Source of the DNA: an uncultured Clostridia bacterium
GTDB lineage: Bacteria > Bacillota > Clostridia > Christensenellales > Pumilibacteraceae
Assembly: GCA_948440265.1 (NCBI GenBank)
Contig: CAOJOK010000002.1
Coordinates: 1 to 64,000 of the forward strand
Reading direction: 5' to 3'
Length of the DNA stretch: 64,000 nucleotides
This document shows, one piece after another, positions 18,123 through 62,753 of this stretch (the first letter of the stretch is position 1; every line of letters begins with the position of its first letter). A program made the translations under genes and the position numbers. Below the pieces are notes generated by a model, which was not told where the DNA came from, made no database searches, and saw only the letters and a program-made list of their open reading frames with translations.

Positions 18123-18905
18123 TTATAAATATGTAGATTTGAAGCCTACGCCGCCGCAATGATTGCACACACCGCCATAATCATTGCGCTGATATTGTAG
18201 GGTCGTTTCGTATGTTCGTGAGACATTACCCTGCACATCGGCAATTTTGATATCGTTCGCATACAACGCACCTAAATTTTGCTTTTCTTTTTTGGTTTTA
18301 TATTTTGTTTCCGACCAGTTTTCCGAGCCTGTAAAATAGTAATTTATGCAAAACATACGCTTGCATTGACTACACCGCTGCCATTTTAAGTAATGCGCCG
18401 TAATAGCAACAGCATAACAGATTTGCGAAGCGGCAACAGTCGGAAGTATAATCGGTAATAATTCGAAAATTGACCCTTTACCCGTGTTTTGCACTTTTTC
18501 AAACAAAACAACCATAGAATCGTAACCCGATATGCTCATCCAAATTATAATACAAGTAAAAGCAAGCGGTAATATCAAAATCCAAATTACTCCGAAAAAT
18601 GTATGCGGACAATGCCGAACGCAATCGGTTTTCCCATTGTAAAACCAATCATTGAAGGTGCCGAGCCACAACCATATAACACTGCAAATAGTTCCGATAA
18701 TTCCGCTGACAATCATATAGTCAAGTACACCCATTTTGTGTGCAAACGGGTCCATAGCAAGAAACCCTTCAGCAAATGAGTTCAAAAACTCGGCGACAGG
18801 ATTCCAAATCATCGATACAATCATTGTCAGAATAAATGTTACCACCGTAACAACAACCACAGTTCCAACACTGCGCAGAAAATTTTTTATAAAAATCCAT
18901 ATCAT
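18123..18905 (-). CDS. Membrane protein with split zinc ribbon (paralogue 1 of 3)
   Basis: A 260-residue protein of unknown function, distantly related to the next two genes. About four hydrophobic segments fill the first 170 residues. A cytoplasm-type tail follows with CSQCKRMFC, then about 60 residues, then CNHCG. The two CxxC pairs look like halves of one zinc ribbon held apart by an insert containing a conserved NLG.....I...DV segment. The ATG at 18905 has GAGG 8 nt upstream and begins about 25 nt after the predicted transcript start. Expression is probably set by the nine-G promoter at 18938-18965. Confidence 0.75.
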   Translation of the reverse strand: MIWIFIKNFLRSVGTVVVVTVVTFILTMIVSMIWNPVAEFLNSFAEGFLAMDPFAHKMGVLDYMIVSGIIGTICSVIWLWLGTFNDWFYNGKTDCVRHCPHTFFGVIWILILPLAFTCIIIWMSISGYDSMVVLFEKVQNTGKGSIFELLPIILPTVAASQICYAVAITAHYLKWQRCSQCKRMFCINYYFTGSENWSETKYKTKKEKQNLGALYANDIKIADVQGNVSRTYETTLQYQRNDYGGVCNHCGGVGFKSTYL

Positions 18906-18937
18906 CCCGATTTACCTCGCTTAAAATCGATAATGAT

Positions 18938-18965
18938 ATGATAACACATCCCCCCCCCGCGTCAA
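18938..18965 (-). promoter_or_regulatory. Promoter with nine-G spacer (candidate phase-variable), copy 1
   Basis: On the minus strand: TTGACG (18960-18965), a 16-bp spacer made of C, nine G (18950-18958) and ATGTGT, then TATCAT (18938-18943). Gain of one G would give the ideal 17-bp spacer. Confidence 0.75.
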
Positions 18966-18995
18966 GCAAAAAACTGCATTATTTTGCTTGACGCG

Positions 18996-19058
18996 AAAAA
19001 CCGCTCGAGTTTTACTCGTACTTCAAAATTGAAGCCCCCATTGCTTTCGGGCGGTTGC
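18996..19058 (-). terminator. Terminator of paralogue 2
   Basis: On the minus strand an outer stem (CCGCCCGA with TCGAGCGG) encloses a smaller CTTCAA/TTGAAG hairpin and is followed by TTTTT. Confidence 0.6.
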
Positions 19059-19081
19059 TATTTTATCGAAGTTATCTGTTT

Positions 19082-19900
19082 TTACAGAAGTTTGTGTGAA
19101 TATTCACCGCCTTCGTTACCGCAATAGTGACACTTATAATGATAGTACGTCACCTTCTTGCGGGACGTATAATTGTGTCTGCGCGTCACGTCGGCATAAA
19201 CCTGTATGTCGCCGATAGAGCCGATATTTTCCCTGCTTGTTTTATCAACATAGCCCTGCTTTTCATATACTTTTTCGTCCAATATCTTTTTTTCGATAAA
19301 GAACGCGTGCTTACACTTTTTACATACAAATTCTTTATAGCCTATGCAAGTGAAAACAAAATAGAATATCTGCGAAACAATGACGGACTCAACGACGAGC
19401 CAAACCGTTATCATAACCGTGTTATCTTTAAGCGCCGCATCTATGTCTTGAAAAATCACTCCCGACAGCCAACTGCTTTTTATCAAAATAAATACCGCTC
19501 CCGATACGGCAAACAGCAAACATACGATAAGCTGTAATACGCATAATTCGGAAAAACTCGGGGCGACTTGTTTTGCCCCGTTATAGCGCGTTTGATTGGA
19601 CGGGTCGAGATATTCACTCGCATCCTTGCCGTCTTTCTTTTTACACAGAAAACATTTGCCGTCGTCTCTTGCTATTTTGCAGGCAAGTTTCATACCGAAG
19701 CCTGCGCCGACAAAAGCAAGCGCGGTGTTAAGAATCACAAGCGCAAGAATGGACGGCATTATAATGCGTATCCCCGCATATAACAAAGTGCCGACAATCT
19801 CCGTTGCAACCACGACAACAGCCGCGATAATCGCAGACGCCACTGCGTCTCGAATAACGTGCTTGAAAAACGCTTTTGCAAATCCACCGAATTTAGCCAT
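19082..19900 (-). CDS. Membrane protein with split zinc ribbon (paralogue 2 of 3)
   Basis: A 272-residue relative of the 20137-20964 product, sharing long blocks such as ASEYLDPSNQ, IFQDIDAALKDNT and YHYKCHYCG. The N-terminal third has a basic amphipathic start and two hydrophobic segments; a second pair of hydrophobic segments follows a charged loop. The tail carries CKKCKHAFF and CHYCG, a split four-cysteine zinc site. No catalytic motif was recognised. GGGAG lies 8 nt before the ATG. The 5' leader from the G-run promoter is about 105 nt, longer than in its two paralogues. Confidence 0.78.
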   Translation of the reverse strand: MAKFGGFAKAFFKHVIRDAVASAIIAAVVVVATEIVGTLLYAGIRIIMPSILALVILNTALAFVGAGFGMKLACKIARDDGKCFLCKKKDGKDASEYLDPSNQTRYNGAKQVAPSFSELCVLQLIVCLLFAVSGAVFILIKSSWLSGVIFQDIDAALKDNTVMITVWLVVESVIVSQIFYFVFTCIGYKEFVCKKCKHAFFIEKKILDEKVYEKQGYVDKTSRENIGSIGDIQVYADVTRRHNYTSRKKVTYYHYKCHYCGNEGGEYSHKLL

Positions 19901-20013
19901 TTTTTATTCTCCCGATATATTCACTTATTGTTCTTACCGATTGCAAAGAAAAATGAAACAATAAATATTATTACCCAAAGTAAAACCATTCCGCCACCAA
20001 ACCGTTTTTTTAT

Positions 20014-20041
20014 ATGATACCATATCCCCCCCCCGCGTCAA
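20014..20041 (-). promoter_or_regulatory. Promoter with nine-G spacer (candidate phase-variable), copy 2
   Basis: On the minus strand: TTGACG (20036-20041), C plus nine G (20026-20034) plus ATATGG (16 bp in all), then TATCAT (20014-20019). Confidence 0.75.
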
Positions 20042-20071
20042 GCAAAAAGCCGCATTATTTTGCTTGACGCG

Positions 20072-20133
20072 AAAAACCGCCCGAGTTTTACGCGTACTTC
20101 AAAATTGAAGCCCAATCGCTTTCGGGCGGTTTT
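20072..20133 (-). terminator. Terminator of paralogue 3
   Basis: On the minus strand ACCGCCCGA pairs with TCGGGCGGT, encloses a CTTCAA/TTGAAG hairpin and is followed by TTTT. Confidence 0.65.
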
Positions 20134-20136
20134 GAT

Positions 20137-20964
20137 TTAGTCTGTTTGATAGTGTTTATGTCTGGTACAAACGCCTTCGTCGCCGCAATAATGACATTTA
20201 TAATGATATCTCGTCGTTGTGTGGTGGTCGGTATAATATTTTCTGTGCGTCACGTCCGCATATATTTGCACTTCGCCGATAGACCCGACATTTTCACGTT
20301 TTGTTTTGTCTTTATAGCCCTGTTTTTGAGAATGCGTACTGCTTAACTCCACCTTTTCCAAAAAGAATGCGTGTTTGCATTTCGGACACACCTGTCCGCT
20401 GTAATCGGCAGCGCAAAAACCGAAGTAGAAAAACTGTGAAATAATAACGCTCTCTACAGCAAGCAATATCGTCACCATAATCGTATTGTCTTTAAGTGCC
20501 GCGTCTATATCTTGAAAGATTATCCCCGTAAACCAATCCCATTTTAACCAAATAAATATTGCGCCGGAGCCTGCAAACATCAAGAATATGATGAATTTCA
20601 AAAAATGCAATTGCGTGACGCGCGGACTTGCTTTCTTTGCGCCCTTATAGTACTTTTGGTTGGACGGGTCGAGATATTCGCTCGCGTCCTTGTCGTCTTC
20701 CTTTTTATAAACAAAATACTCGTCATCTTCGCTTCCGATTTTGTAGGCAATGTTCATTCCCACGCCCGAACCGATAAGCCCGAAAATCGTGTTTAAAATT
20801 ACAAGGCCGAGAATGGACGGCATTATAATGCGTATTCCCACATATAAAAACATACCTATAAGCAATGTGGCAATCACCACAACAACCGCGATAATCAAAG
20901 TCGCAATAAAATCGCGGAGAAAGTGTTTAAAAAACATTTTAACAAATCCACGTAATTTAGCCAT
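20137..20964 (-). CDS. Membrane protein with split zinc ribbon (paralogue 3 of 3)
   Basis: A 275-residue paralogue of the 19082-19900 product with the same order: hydrophobic pair, charged loop with KDASEYLDPSNQ, hydrophobic pair, CPKCKHAFF, a segment with KRENVGSIGEVQIYADV, then CHYCG. The function is unknown. The ATG at 20964 has AGGAGA 4 nt upstream, which is better supported than the in-frame start at 20979. The leader from its promoter is about 18 nt. It is the first of three consecutively duplicated genes, each with its own promoter and terminator rather than a shared operon. Confidence 0.78.
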   Translation of the reverse strand: MAKLRGFVKMFFKHFLRDFIATLIIAVVVVIATLLIGMFLYVGIRIIMPSILGLVILNTIFGLIGSGVGMNIAYKIGSEDDEYFVYKKEDDKDASEYLDPSNQKYYKGAKKASPRVTQLHFLKFIIFLMFAGSGAIFIWLKWDWFTGIIFQDIDAALKDNTIMVTILLAVESVIISQFFYFGFCAADYSGQVCPKCKHAFFLEKVELSSTHSQKQGYKDKTKRENVGSIGEVQIYADVTHRKYYTDHHTTTRYHYKCHYCGDEGVCTRHKHYQTD

Positions 20965-20989
20965 TTTGTCTCCTATCATATTTTTTTAT

Positions 20990-21017
20990 ATAATAACATA
21001 TCCCCCCCCCGCGTCAA
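20990..21017 (-). promoter_or_regulatory. Promoter with nine-G spacer (candidate phase-variable), copy 3
   Basis: On the minus strand: TTGACG (21012-21017), C plus nine G (21002-21010) plus ATATGT (16 bp), then TATTAT (20990-20995). The inverted repeat found at the other two copies is absent; only one half (GCGTCAAGCG) remains. Confidence 0.75.
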
Positions 21018-49408: not shown

Positions 49409-51478
49409 TTATTTCTTCGGCAAGACAATGCCGATGACAAATTCGTTGTTTTCTTTATATACGGCAAAGCTTCCGCCGTATTTTTGAGCAATGCTCTTTA
49501 TCGATTTAATTCCGAACCCGTGAAAACCGTCATCTCTCTTTGTCGTGGCAAGCTCGCCTTTTTTATTGAGCTTCAATTCTCCTTCGTATCTGTTCTTGAC
49601 GGAAATACTCACAAGACTTCCCTGTGCCGCCACCGAAATCTTCACCAATCGTTTTTCGGCAGGCAGGGTCATAACATATTCTATCGCATTATCGAGTGCG
49701 TTGCCGAACAGAGAATATATATCGGACGGAGACATAAACGACACCTGACTGCCGTCCGCCATAACCGTCATATTTATTTTATTTTTTACGCAATACAGAT
49801 TTTTGTCGGTTATGACGACGTCGAGAGCTTCGTTTCCGGTCTTTATTGCACTGTCGTAAATTTCTATCGATTCGCTCAACTGTTTAAGATAATCTTCGTC
49901 CAAAGATTTATTGCCTTTCAGTACAAGAAGCTGGTGTTTCAAATCGTGGCATTTCAAATTTATAATGTCTATATTCTCCTTGGTCATTTCATACTGCTTC
50001 AACTTCATTTCCTGCATATGCCGAACAGTATCGGTTTCGTGCTTTTTCAAAACTTCTTTTGCCAGCAGGAACTGCACAAAAAGAACCGTCATACAACAAA
50101 TAATATTGCATACGTTCAAAGTAATGCTCAACAGTTCGTTTTGCTTGCTGTATGCCGTGGAAAAACTGCGAATTATCACCAATGAGAGAATGACCACTAA
50201 AAACAGAAACACCGTGGGCGCAGAGTAAACCTCGGCGACTTCGGCAACGTCGCTTGCCCGTCTTGCAAAAATAAAATATGCGGCGACATATAACGGCACA
50301 TACGATAAAAGCCAAATGCAAACGGAAGCCGCCGAAACCGAAACAAGCGACGGGAACTGCAATGAGGGATTTATAAGACCTATAATAAAGTGAAACATAT
50401 TGCCGATGTTCTGAAGCGAATATGCCGCCACCGAAACATATATAATCGTTATCGGTTTTTCTTCGAAACAGACAAAAAGTCCGCCCGTCACAAAAACAAA
50501 AATAATGATGTGCGTAATCAGATTCATAATAGAATACAACATCGGGTATTTTCCGAATACTTCGTAAAACCCGTAAATCAGCTGTATTGCCAAAAAACCG
50601 AGCAATACAGACAGCCCGAGACAGACGGCAATGCTCGAAACGCAACGTATAACGAAATGCTTTCTTCTTTTCAAAGACAGCGCAAAAATGATTGACGCTA
50701 TGATTTGCCAAAACATATACACGATACGAAGCAAGTAAAAATACAGCTCCTCATTCATAAGCTTCCCCCCCCCCGAAAAACCGATATAGGCATTGAGCGC
50801 GCAGACAAACGCCTTTTTCTTCGCTCTGCTGATTTTAAGTTTCTCCTCGCCCACCGTCACATATTCCGTTTCTATTTTTCGCACGTGCCTGAGATTTACT
50901 ATGTAGCTCGAATTACAACAGGCGAAACATTCTTTCGGCAAAATCTGCTCCGTTTGTTTCATACTGCCGCGGGTATCGATAACGCCAAAATCGGTGTGAT
51001 ACAAAACTCTGTGAAGGTTGACTTCGGCATATAAAAGAGAAATAAGCGGTATGCGCACAAAACCGACGCTGCTTTTCACGGTGATATAGCCGCCGAGACG
51101 TCTTTTGACTTTTTCGATGACAGACGCAAGCGCGGTTTCCGCCGCTTCTTTCGTCACGGGTTTCAATATATAATCGACAGCTCCGACCTCATACCCCTTG
51201 GCGGCATAGCGCGCCAGGCTCGTAACAAATACAAGCGGAACATCGGGGTCAACTTTGCGCAATTGTTTCGCTCCGTCCATTCCGTCCATACCCGGCATTT
51301 TTACATCCATAAACACGGCGTCGGCTTCCGCTTTATACGGATATAAAAATTGCAGCGGATTTTCGAAAATCCGCATTTCGCTTTCCATTCCCTGTTCCCT
51401 GCAAATATCCGTTAAAAAGCCGCTTAACCTGCTCGCTTCCCGCGCATCGTCTTCTATAATCGCCACTCTCATCTTCAT
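49409..51478 (-). CDS. LytTR response regulator fused in frame to a GHKL sensor kinase across a ten-G run
   Basis: As written this is one 689-residue frame. Residues 1 to about 234 are a complete response regulator: receiver with Asp 58 (FMDVKM), then a LytTR DNA-binding domain. After SGGGKL (the ten-G run at 50765-50774) comes a normal kinase start, MNEELYF (ATG at 50758). Seven or so membrane segments follow, then the CHDLKHQ histidine box and a GHKL ATPase domain (N box SLFGNALDNAIEY, GFHGFGIKSIK). With nine G the regulator would stop at TGA overlapping that ATG, giving two coupled genes; with eleven G it would also stop. Confidence 0.8.
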   Translation of the reverse strand: MKMRVAIIEDDAREASRLSGFLTDICREQGMESEMRIFENPLQFLYPYKAEADAVFMDVKMPGMDGMDGAKQLRKVDPDVPLVFVTSLARYAAKGYEVGAVDYILKPVTKEAAETALASVIEKVKRRLGGYITVKSSVGFVRIPLISLLYAEVNLHRVLYHTDFGVIDTRGSMKQTEQILPKECFACCNSSYIVNLRHVRKIETEYVTVGEEKLKISRAKKKAFVCALNAYIGFSGGGKLMNEELYFYLLRIVYMFWQIIASIIFALSLKRRKHFVIRCVSSIAVCLGLSVLLGFLAIQLIYGFYEVFGKYPMLYSIMNLITHIIIFVFVTGGLFVCFEEKPITIIYVSVAAYSLQNIGNMFHFIIGLINPSLQFPSLVSVSAASVCIWLLSYVPLYVAAYFIFARRASDVAEVAEVYSAPTVFLFLVVILSLVIIRSFSTAYSKQNELLSITLNVCNIICCMTVLFVQFLLAKEVLKKHETDTVRHMQEMKLKQYEMTKENIDIINLKCHDLKHQLLVLKGNKSLDEDYLKQLSESIEIYDSAIKTGNEALDVVITDKNLYCVKNKINMTVMADGSQVSFMSPSDIYSLFGNALDNAIEYVMTLPAEKRLVKISVAAQGSLVSISVKNRYEGELKLNKKGELATTKRDDGFHGFGIKSIKSIAQKYGGSFAVYKENNEFVIGIVLPKK
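50765..50774 (-). repeat. Ten-G run at the regulator/kinase junction
   Basis: Ten G on the coding (minus) strand. The length decides between a fused regulator-kinase (ten) and separate proteins (nine or eleven). With separate genes, the G run plus AAG would also serve as the kinase Shine-Dalgarno region. Confidence 0.8.
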
Positions 51479-51506
51479 AGTATCCCAACCCCTTTTTCAC
51501 CTTATG

Positions 51507-60806: not shown

Positions 60807-62753
60807 CTAATAGCGAATTTCAATCTTATCGATGTTTGCCGCACGTTGACTTCCGCCATCATTTATCGTCCCTATACATTCGATGGTGATTTTGGTAAAC
60901 CCTGCTTTCAAATCTATTTCGGAAATTAAATTCTTCGTCCACAGGAACCATATACTTTCGCCGTTGCCCTGCGTTTTACCTTTAACAAGAACATCGTCAG
61001 GTACGGTGATTTCCACGTCGTCCACCGAAAGCTTGAACAGCTGATTGAACTTCAAATCTTCGGTAAAGCCGCTTCCGCGCTTCAAAGACGCCGCCACAAA
61101 CACCAGCTCGGCATTCTGCACCGCCTGCTCGCTGTACACATAGAAATCTATCTTGGTTCCCACGCCGACGTCGCTTACGCTTGCGCTGCCGTTCAAACCT
61201 TTTCCCGCTTCTATCTTATTCTTTCCCGATATGACGGTATAGCTTTCGCTAGTGGGAGTTTCGGCGCCGCTTGCCAGCGTGCTTTCTGCTTCCACCGATA
61301 TAAGTTGAGTTTCGCGCACGCTGATGTCCAATTTCTTTTCGAAAGTTTTGAATTTGAGCATTACGAACGTATCGTCTTTCGTGAGTTCGCCGTTCGGGGT
61401 CCAAGTCAGGCGGTTTGCGCCGAGATTGACGTCGCCGTCATAACCGTTTTTATAAACCGCGTCGAACACTATGCCGTCGGGCGAGAAGAACTCTCCTTCC
61501 TTATAAGACAGCTTCGACGGAGCCGTCTTTATCACGATATCCGTACAGACGTCGCCGCGCGTTACGACGTCGGGGTCGTCGTCGGAAAGACGCACGTCCA
61601 GTCTGTCTATGTTCGGCGTTCTCGGATAGTTACTGCTGTCGGGGATTCCGCCGATACATACGACTTTGACTTTATTGAAGCCTTTTTTGATATCTATTTT
61701 GCCGAACGGCACGTCCGCCCAGTTCGTCCACTTGTTTCCGCCGCTGTTGGCTTCGGGGAAAGGCTTGCCGGGAATTACGATATCGTCGTCTATATAAACT
61801 TCTTCGTTTTCTTCGCCCACATATACTTTGCAGAATTTGTTGAACTGCATATCGAGCATAGTATTATTCGGCACGTCCTGAACGGTGGAAGCCGCCAAAA
61901 GCACCAAATCGGCGTTGGGAATTTCGCCTTCCGAATAGATATAGAATTCTATTTCGAAACCTTTTTCTATACTGCCGATATAGCCCGTGCCCGTCCAGGT
62001 ACAGTCGGTTTTCACTTCGCCCTTTCCTTTCATCGTCGTATAGCTTGCGTCCGTCGGAGCGGTGTCGCCGCTTTTCACGACGTCTTCCGCCTGAACGGTA
62101 ATGCCGCCGTAAACGTGAATTACAAAGGTATCGGTTTTGGTTATTTCCCCTACTTTTAAGGTTACGGTCAAATGCAAGTCCTTAACCGCTTCGTCCAAAA
62201 CGGTGCCCTGCACATATTCTTTTCCTTCTTTGTCGGTTATCGTATATCCGACTTCGTTGTCGACGTCGCCTTCTTCATAAGACGCTTTCACGACAAGTCC
62301 GCTCAAATCCAACGGGTCGCCGAGCGAATACGCCGTTATATCGGGCTCGCGCGTGATTTCCATACCGAGCAGTTTTTTATCCGCCACCGTTATGGGAAGC
62401 TTCTTCTCGAAACCTTCGAACAGCAAAGTCATCTCCGTAACACTGCTATTCAGTACGCCTCTGGGCGACCACCCGTCCAAATCTCCGCCCGTCAGATTCT
62501 TGTCTCCGTCAAAGCCGTTTTTATATACGGCGTCGAACACAAGTCCCGCGGGACTGAACTTTTCTCCGCTCTTATACTCGAGCTTCGTCGGCATCTTTGT
62601 TATATTCAAATCGATGCAGACGTCGCCCTCCGTTATCTTCGCGGGGGGGGGATTCTCGGGCTGCGGCGGATTATTACCGCCGCAAGCGGCAAATACAAGC
62701 GCGCAGACGAGCAAAATTGCCGCCAAGGCATATATCCGCTTACTCTTTTTCAT
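60807..62753 (-). CDS. Lipoprotein with duplicated Ig-like and CBM-like modules
   Basis: A 648-residue exported protein with lipobox FAAC (Cys 24) and a Pro/Asn linker holding nine consecutive C bases. The body is an internal duplication. Each half has a Big_3-like Ig module (KLEYKSGEKFSPAGLVFDAVYKNG, and again KLSYKEGEFFSPDGIVFDAVYKNG) followed by a beta-sandwich domain like CBM6/35 (VQAEDVVKSGDTAPTDASY / VEAESTLASGAETPTSESY). It probably binds polysaccharide for the GH3 enzyme downstream. Loss or gain of one C at 62643-62651 would stop translation within about 25 codons. Confidence 0.82.
   Translation of the reverse strand: MKKSKRIYALAAILLVCALVFAACGGNNPPQPENPPPAKITEGDVCIDLNITKMPTKLEYKSGEKFSPAGLVFDAVYKNGFDGDKNLTGGDLDGWSPRGVLNSSVTEMTLLFEGFEKKLPITVADKKLLGMEITREPDITAYSLGDPLDLSGLVVKASYEEGDVDNEVGYTITDKEGKEYVQGTVLDEAVKDLHLTVTLKVGEITKTDTFVIHVYGGITVQAEDVVKSGDTAPTDASYTTMKGKGEVKTDCTWTGTGYIGSIEKGFEIEFYIYSEGEIPNADLVLLAASTVQDVPNNTMLDMQFNKFCKVYVGEENEEVYIDDDIVIPGKPFPEANSGGNKWTNWADVPFGKIDIKKGFNKVKVVCIGGIPDSSNYPRTPNIDRLDVRLSDDDPDVVTRGDVCTDIVIKTAPSKLSYKEGEFFSPDGIVFDAVYKNGYDGDVNLGANRLTWTPNGELTKDDTFVMLKFKTFEKKLDISVRETQLISVEAESTLASGAETPTSESYTVISGKNKIEAGKGLNGSASVSDVGVGTKIDFYVYSEQAVQNAELVFVAASLKRGSGFTEDLKFNQLFKLSVDDVEITVPDDVLVKGKTQGNGESIWFLWTKNLISEIDLKAGFTKITIECIGTINDGGSQRAANIDKIEIRY
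62643..62651 (-). repeat. Nine-C run after the lipoprotein signal peptide
   Basis: Nine C on the coding strand encode the PPP of the linker at residues 35-37. A change to eight or ten C puts translation out of frame with an early stop. Confidence 0.8.

Follow-up and report, generated by a model that had tools for sequence, protein, structure and literature searches.

The locus described here raises the question of why three neighbouring genes for membrane proteins are each preceded by a run of nine guanines lodged between the -35 and -10 boxes of the promoter. The genes lie in a stretch of 64,000 nucleotides (hereafter, the window) from the metagenome-assembled genome of an uncultured Clostridia bacterium of the family Pumilibacteraceae, and the following elements were recognised, with promoters assigned by match to consensus -35 and -10 boxes:

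18123 to 18905, minus strand: gene 1, membrane protein of 260 aa with two CxxC motifs
18937 to 19056, minus strand: block of ~121 bp upstream of gene 1, with a terminator-like hairpin, the palindrome CGCGTCAAGCAAAA...TTTTGCTTGACGCG and the promoter
18938 to 18965, minus strand: promoter 1, with -35 TTGACG (18960-18965), G9 (18950-18958), -10 TATCAT (18938-18943) and a 16-bp spacer
19082 to 19900, minus strand: gene 2, paralogue of 272 aa
20012 to 20132, minus strand: second copy of the ~121-bp block, upstream of gene 2, delimited by alignment
20014 to 20041, minus strand: promoter 2, with -35 TTGACG, G9 (20026-20034), -10 TATCAT and a 16-bp spacer
20137 to 20979, minus strand: gene 3, 280 aa as called
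20990 to 21017, minus strand: promoter 3, with -35 TTGACG, G9 (21002-21010), -10 TATTAT and a 16-bp spacer

Read on the minus strand, promoter 1 (18965-18938) is TTGACG C GGGGGGGGG ATGTGT TATCAT, promoter 2 (20041-20014) is TTGACG C GGGGGGGGG ATATGG TATCAT, and promoter 3 (21017-20990) is TTGACG C GGGGGGGGG ATATGT TATTAT, with TG preceding the -10 box in all three. The original prediction had described three minus-strand arrays of TTGACG, C, nine G, six nucleotides and TATCAT or TATTAT with 16-bp spacers, and on rereading of the sequence this description was exact to the base. Promoters 1 and 2 are not independent, since the 121 bp upstream are common to genes 1 and 2; upstream of gene 3 only a 39-bp promoter core is shared with these two. 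The palindrome located at the -35 of promoters 1 and 2 was considered as an essential part of the arrangement and discarded, being missing at promoter 3. A 22-codon hydrophobic ORF (MVLLWVIIFIVSFFFAIGKNNK; 19921-19989, minus strand) was further observed upstream of gene 2, in the leader that follows promoter 2.

The three genes encode membrane proteins in which the CxxC...CxxC arrangement is invariant, with an identity of 58.8% between genes 2 and 3, and of 20-22% between gene 1 and genes 2/3. For gene 3, an alternative start (ATG at 20964) has a better ribosome-binding site and would give a product of 275 aa. No relative of genes 1-3 was found in Pfam, NCBIfam or PDB, the structure model of gene 1 obtained from the three sequences was poor (mean pLDDT 56), and a profile of the three paralogues gave 0 matches in 73 other genomes of the family. 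A fourth paralogue was recovered by profile search in the same genome only (contig C4, 25927-26679), and a G-run promoter was not found within ~330 bp upstream of it. With paralogues confined to one genome and a fourth copy without the G-run promoter, the gene family was ruled out as the key to the finding. The earlier view had concentrated too narrowly on these genes, which are orphans confined to one genome; what is novel is the system to which their promoters belong.

On the sequence evidence given below, we consider it likely that the G9 runs of the window are slipped-strand switches in a genome-wide poly-G contingency system common to Pumilibacteraceae and some related families. Replication slippage would gain or lose one G, shifting the distance between the -35 and -10 boxes by 1 bp, and RNA polymerase would use the promoter well only near a spacing of 17-18 bp. 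Transcription of each gene would alternate, in a heritable and reversible manner, between a weak or off state (e.g., 15-16 or 19-20 bp) and a strong state (17-18 bp), the latter being reached at the window promoters with 10 or 11 G. The same system would act on promoter spacers and, in the organism's own genome, also on G/C tracts within genes, with lipoproteins, membrane/surface proteins, transporters and LytTR two-component genes as main targets. We infer that slippage takes place in living populations, that it affects transcription, and that it is of benefit to these bacteria.

Throughout the 1.86-Mb genome that contains the window, pattern searches and sequence stretches revealed runs of eight or more G (G8+) at 51 places, corresponding to 46 distinct runs once duplicates and artefacts at contig ends are set aside, 12 of these runs being G10 or longer. 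Fifteen of the 46 lie between TTGAC and TANNNT, while 2000 trials with shuffled flanks placed a mean of 0.25 and a maximum of 3 runs in promoter spacers. As regards immediate context, promoters and genes alike, the preceding base is C in 37/46 runs and the following base is A or T in 43/46. It was also observed that two contigs of this genome, at the end of G000:C2 (264593-264620) and the start of G000:C4 (9-36), both stop ~10 bp beyond one G9 promoter but differ in the sequence upstream of it; this is a repeated copy of the promoter, which assembly did not resolve.

The arrangement is not restricted to this genome. A survey of 74 Pumilibacteraceae genomes, searched with TATAAT as the only -10 box, detected 68 distinct G-run promoters in 24 of them, and 0 sites with the backwards pattern. 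In the order-wide sample, matches were present in 25/219 genomes, with three other families contributing several, and many of the matches listed from a GTDB-wide scan belong to Clostridia and Bacilli of the animal gut. The matches also include Helicobacter, where poly-G phase variation is known. Furthermore, the sequenced isolates Pumilibacter muris CLA-AA-M08 (G002) and P. intestinalis CLA-AA-M10 (G019) carry G-run promoters (seven runs in P. muris), and because of this such promoters do not originate in metagenome assembly. Homopolymers can indeed be miscounted by assemblers, and the 50-G runs at two contig ends (L076, L079) are evidently artefacts, but the window runs lie inside the contig, between unique flanking sequences, and belong to the same class as those of the isolates, P. 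muris having been sequenced at ~365x. An assembly or sequencing artefact in the metagenome-assembled genome is thereby an extremely improbable explanation, and as to the existence of the runs it is largely refuted.

The position of the run within the spacer bears on whether it might be a fixed promoter element, read by a regulator or a sigma factor, or acting as a DNA structure (e.g., G-quadruplex), which would define an envelope regulon without switching. G9 is the commonest length (37/68 family sites), a dominance also expected of a fixed element; moreover, C stands directly before all 15 promoter runs of the own genome, the targets have a common theme, and copies ~75-92% identical often retain G9. 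Nevertheless, the run starts 0-6 nt after TTGAC and ends 0-13 nt before the -10 box with no favoured position, so that no constant distance from either box is kept, and run length and spacer length both vary. Like G/C tracts also occur within genes whose frames are broken there, where such an element would have no role, and we regard a fixed element as unlikely.

Spacer length is where G-run promoters depart from ordinary ones. Among the matches listed for two family genomes, ordinary promoters have a spacer of 17-18 bp in 123/142 cases, in contrast to 11/68 of the family's G-run promoters, whose modes are 15-16 and 19-21 bp (Fisher p ~2e-11, for exactly 17 bp and likewise for 16-18 bp), the search pattern being neutral as to spacer length over the 15-21 range compared. 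The dip at 17-18 bp recurs in the order sample and among the matches listed in the GTDB sample. Genes 1-3 are probably weak or off at G9, because one more G would be needed to reach the usual spacing; more generally, most G-run promoters appear to be off or weak in their assembled, commonest state, a gain or loss of one or two Gs away from the on state.

The genes downstream have a common character as well. Within the family, 54 of the 62 target genes with a ribosome-binding site are predicted to encode lipoproteins, signal-peptide or membrane proteins, versus 10/27 genes under ordinary promoters (p = 4e-6), these 27 coming, all but one, from the own genome, and envelope classes being assigned by a simple hydropathy and lipobox rule. 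In the own genome alone, all G-run target genes (13/13) fall in envelope classes. Pfam names among the targets comprise ABC transporters, BspA-type LRR, Listeria-Bacteroides repeats, Ig-like domains, GH3, sialyltransferase-like proteins and LytTR response regulators. Envelope bias and avoidance of 17-18 bp point to selection and against passive expansion, in which mutation would lengthen the G-runs of promoters that are duplicated along with their genes, no role of the runs being selected. Such expansion would agree with the duplicated 121-bp block upstream of genes 1 and 2, and with upstream repeats common to several own-genome sites; yet flanks are unrelated at most sites, and C-runs are nearly missing from the same place (1 site with a C-run replacing G, against 68), which makes this explanation very unlikely.

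Differences in run length between related copies were found directly. Two copies in one genome with 95.5% identity have G11 and G12 (L294/L295), two in one metagenome-assembled genome have G11 and G10 (L189/L267), another pair has G10 and G8 (L099/L134), and other sets of related copies show G8, G9 and G10. Of the pairs at least 85% identical, 6/25 differ in run and spacing, while outside the run there are 0.08 gap openings per 10 bp; this is a roughly threefold difference, and indels in the run are put at ~2.5-5 times the flanking rate. The excess is modest, and the pairs behind it are few and partly non-independent. These differences at conserved flanks come from copies elsewhere in the family and beyond.

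Tracts within genes extend the slipped-strand reading beyond promoters. An AraC regulator of the own genome has 12 G between its cupin-domain frame and its helix-turn-helix frame, a group-1 glycosyltransferase is split into two frames at a 10-G tract, and a GH3 enzyme is likewise split at a 10-C tract (tract sites L034, L070 and L068, respectively). Several lipoprotein genes are also frame-broken at a tract near the signal peptide, and all these breaks resemble those of translational phase variation. Other tracts leave the reading frame intact, including that of one lipoprotein gene of the window:

62643 to 62651, minus strand: 9-C coding tract immediately following a lipoprotein lipobox, with the frame intact in the assembly

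The four other lipoprotein genes noted (L083, L033, L037, L075), with the tract directly following or near the signal peptide or start, are all out of frame in the assembly.

Since the promoter arrangement and the in-gene G-runs recur in the genome and in the family, surface genes are probably switched on and off by slippage, as in Neisseria and Campylobacter. The phase variation originally proposed for the three window promoters is supported in part, and gains considerably from the recurrence of the arrangement at ~12 further sites of the own genome and in other family members, by off-optimum spacers, from single-G differences between copies, from envelope targets, and from genes broken at coding tracts. 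The original prediction had also pointed to related genomes as a place to seek length variation, and here single-G differences do appear between copies elsewhere, the three window sites being all G9. Its view of 10 G as the optimum fits the ordinary promoters of the family (17-18 bp), with the reservation that the TG before the -10 box may loosen the spacing requirement at the three window promoters. The eight expression states it derived from three switches are arithmetic, not evidence.

The proposed poly-G switching is best compared with systems already described. For Neisseria, PMC5320596 states that a homopolymer between the -35 and -10 boxes alters expression of fetA (citing Carson 2000), and that a homopolymer in the spacer alters expression of porA (van der Ende 1995 cited). 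The earlier comparison with porA was apt: in porA and fetA, as here, a homopolymer occupies a sigma-70 spacer, with a tract of ~9-14 and an envelope gene downstream. Spacing alters expression in Neisseria, whereas such an effect is here proposed from the sequence. Neisseria, in addition, is Gram-negative with few promoters of this kind (for a gonococcal strain, PMC5320596 gives three that act on transcription), while the Clostridia genome studied here has ~15, nearly always with G on the coding strand.

In Campylobacter, the poly-G phasome is established (PhasomeIt, PMC6321876), and resembles the present case in the many long G tracts per genome, the surface-glycan or surface-protein targets, and the genes split at the tract. 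On our side, the counterparts are the 46 G8+ runs and the frame-broken AraC, glycosyltransferase, GH3 and lipoprotein genes. Campylobacter tracts are mostly in reading frames, and the usual MutS and MutL are lacking in this genus, a trait typical of Campylobacter that does not strictly define such systems. Here, in contrast, promoter spacers are a main class, and both MutS and MutL were found (868- and 627-aa frames, respectively). Loss of mismatch repair was accordingly ruled out as a cause, and a general mutator state is therefore no explanation.

Closer in habitat, Bifidobacterium breve is, like the present bacterium, a gut commensal of Gram-positive lineage with G tracts, and slippage has been measured at the G10-G11 coding tracts of its pilus genes; it differs in belonging to Actinomycetota and in the coding location of the tracts, promoter-spacer tracts being mentioned without description (PMC9187656). 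Invertons of gut bacteria and Clostridioides difficile also produce promoter phase variation of surface genes, Clostridia included, but by site-specific recombination in place of the slippage proposed here (PMC11892184, PMC8890394). In the available text of a 2025 review, Clostridia appear only for inversion switches and related signalling (PMC11868660). In the open-access literature searched, which is a part of the whole literature, no paper was found to describe promoter switches of the poly-G type for Clostridia. Phase variation in gut Firmicutes has been studied mainly as DNA inversion.

In this context, the kind of mechanism is known from porA and fetA, and it is the lineage, the size of the repertoire and the apparent default-off spacing that look new; the three window promoters exemplify a wider repertoire that has apparently gone undescribed. 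If the slippage reading is true, short-read assemblies and single reference genomes would routinely misstate the surface genes that these commensals express. Pumilibacter muris offers a cultured host where default-off promoter switching would be directly measurable, and the off-optimum spacer distribution would provide a simple statistical sign of phase-variable promoters, usable on any genome.

Another type of tract in the window joins a regulator gene to a kinase gene:

50765 to 50774, minus strand: G10 run where a LytTR response-regulator gene meets a GHKL histidine-kinase gene, the two forming a single open frame with 10 G (49412-51496)

The fused frame encodes 695 aa; at 9 G, as read from the sequence, the regulator would stop at a TGA that overlaps the ATG of the kinase. 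A run exactly where the downstream kinase gene begins was seen in at least four LytTR response-regulator genes of the own genome, and orthologous junctions in other genomes (L355-L357) retain G9 or G10. The junction run may thus toggle the signalling proteins between a fused and a separate form; we know of no signalling-wiring switch of this regulator-kinase fusion type. More tentatively, and with much less confidence than we place in slipped-strand switching itself, poly-G contingency may operate in a whole group of gut Clostridia on three levels, namely off-optimum promoter spacers, post-lipobox tracts, and tracts at LytTR regulator-kinase junctions. Were this so, spacers would stand one or two Gs off 17-18 bp with most targets off by default, and one G more or less at a junction would turn a coupled two-gene unit into a fused or mis-coupled product.

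Runs of G8-G10 were noted at the LytTR response-regulator/histidine-kinase junctions L028, L035, L073 and L078, and the runs L035 and L041 belong to response-regulator genes. In a survey of LytTR response regulators citing G000, G001, G008, G023, G056, G070, G072, G076 and G078, many other genomes of the family had 0 matches at the same cut-off, and in several members the family of regulators is much expanded, with 14-23 copies per genome.
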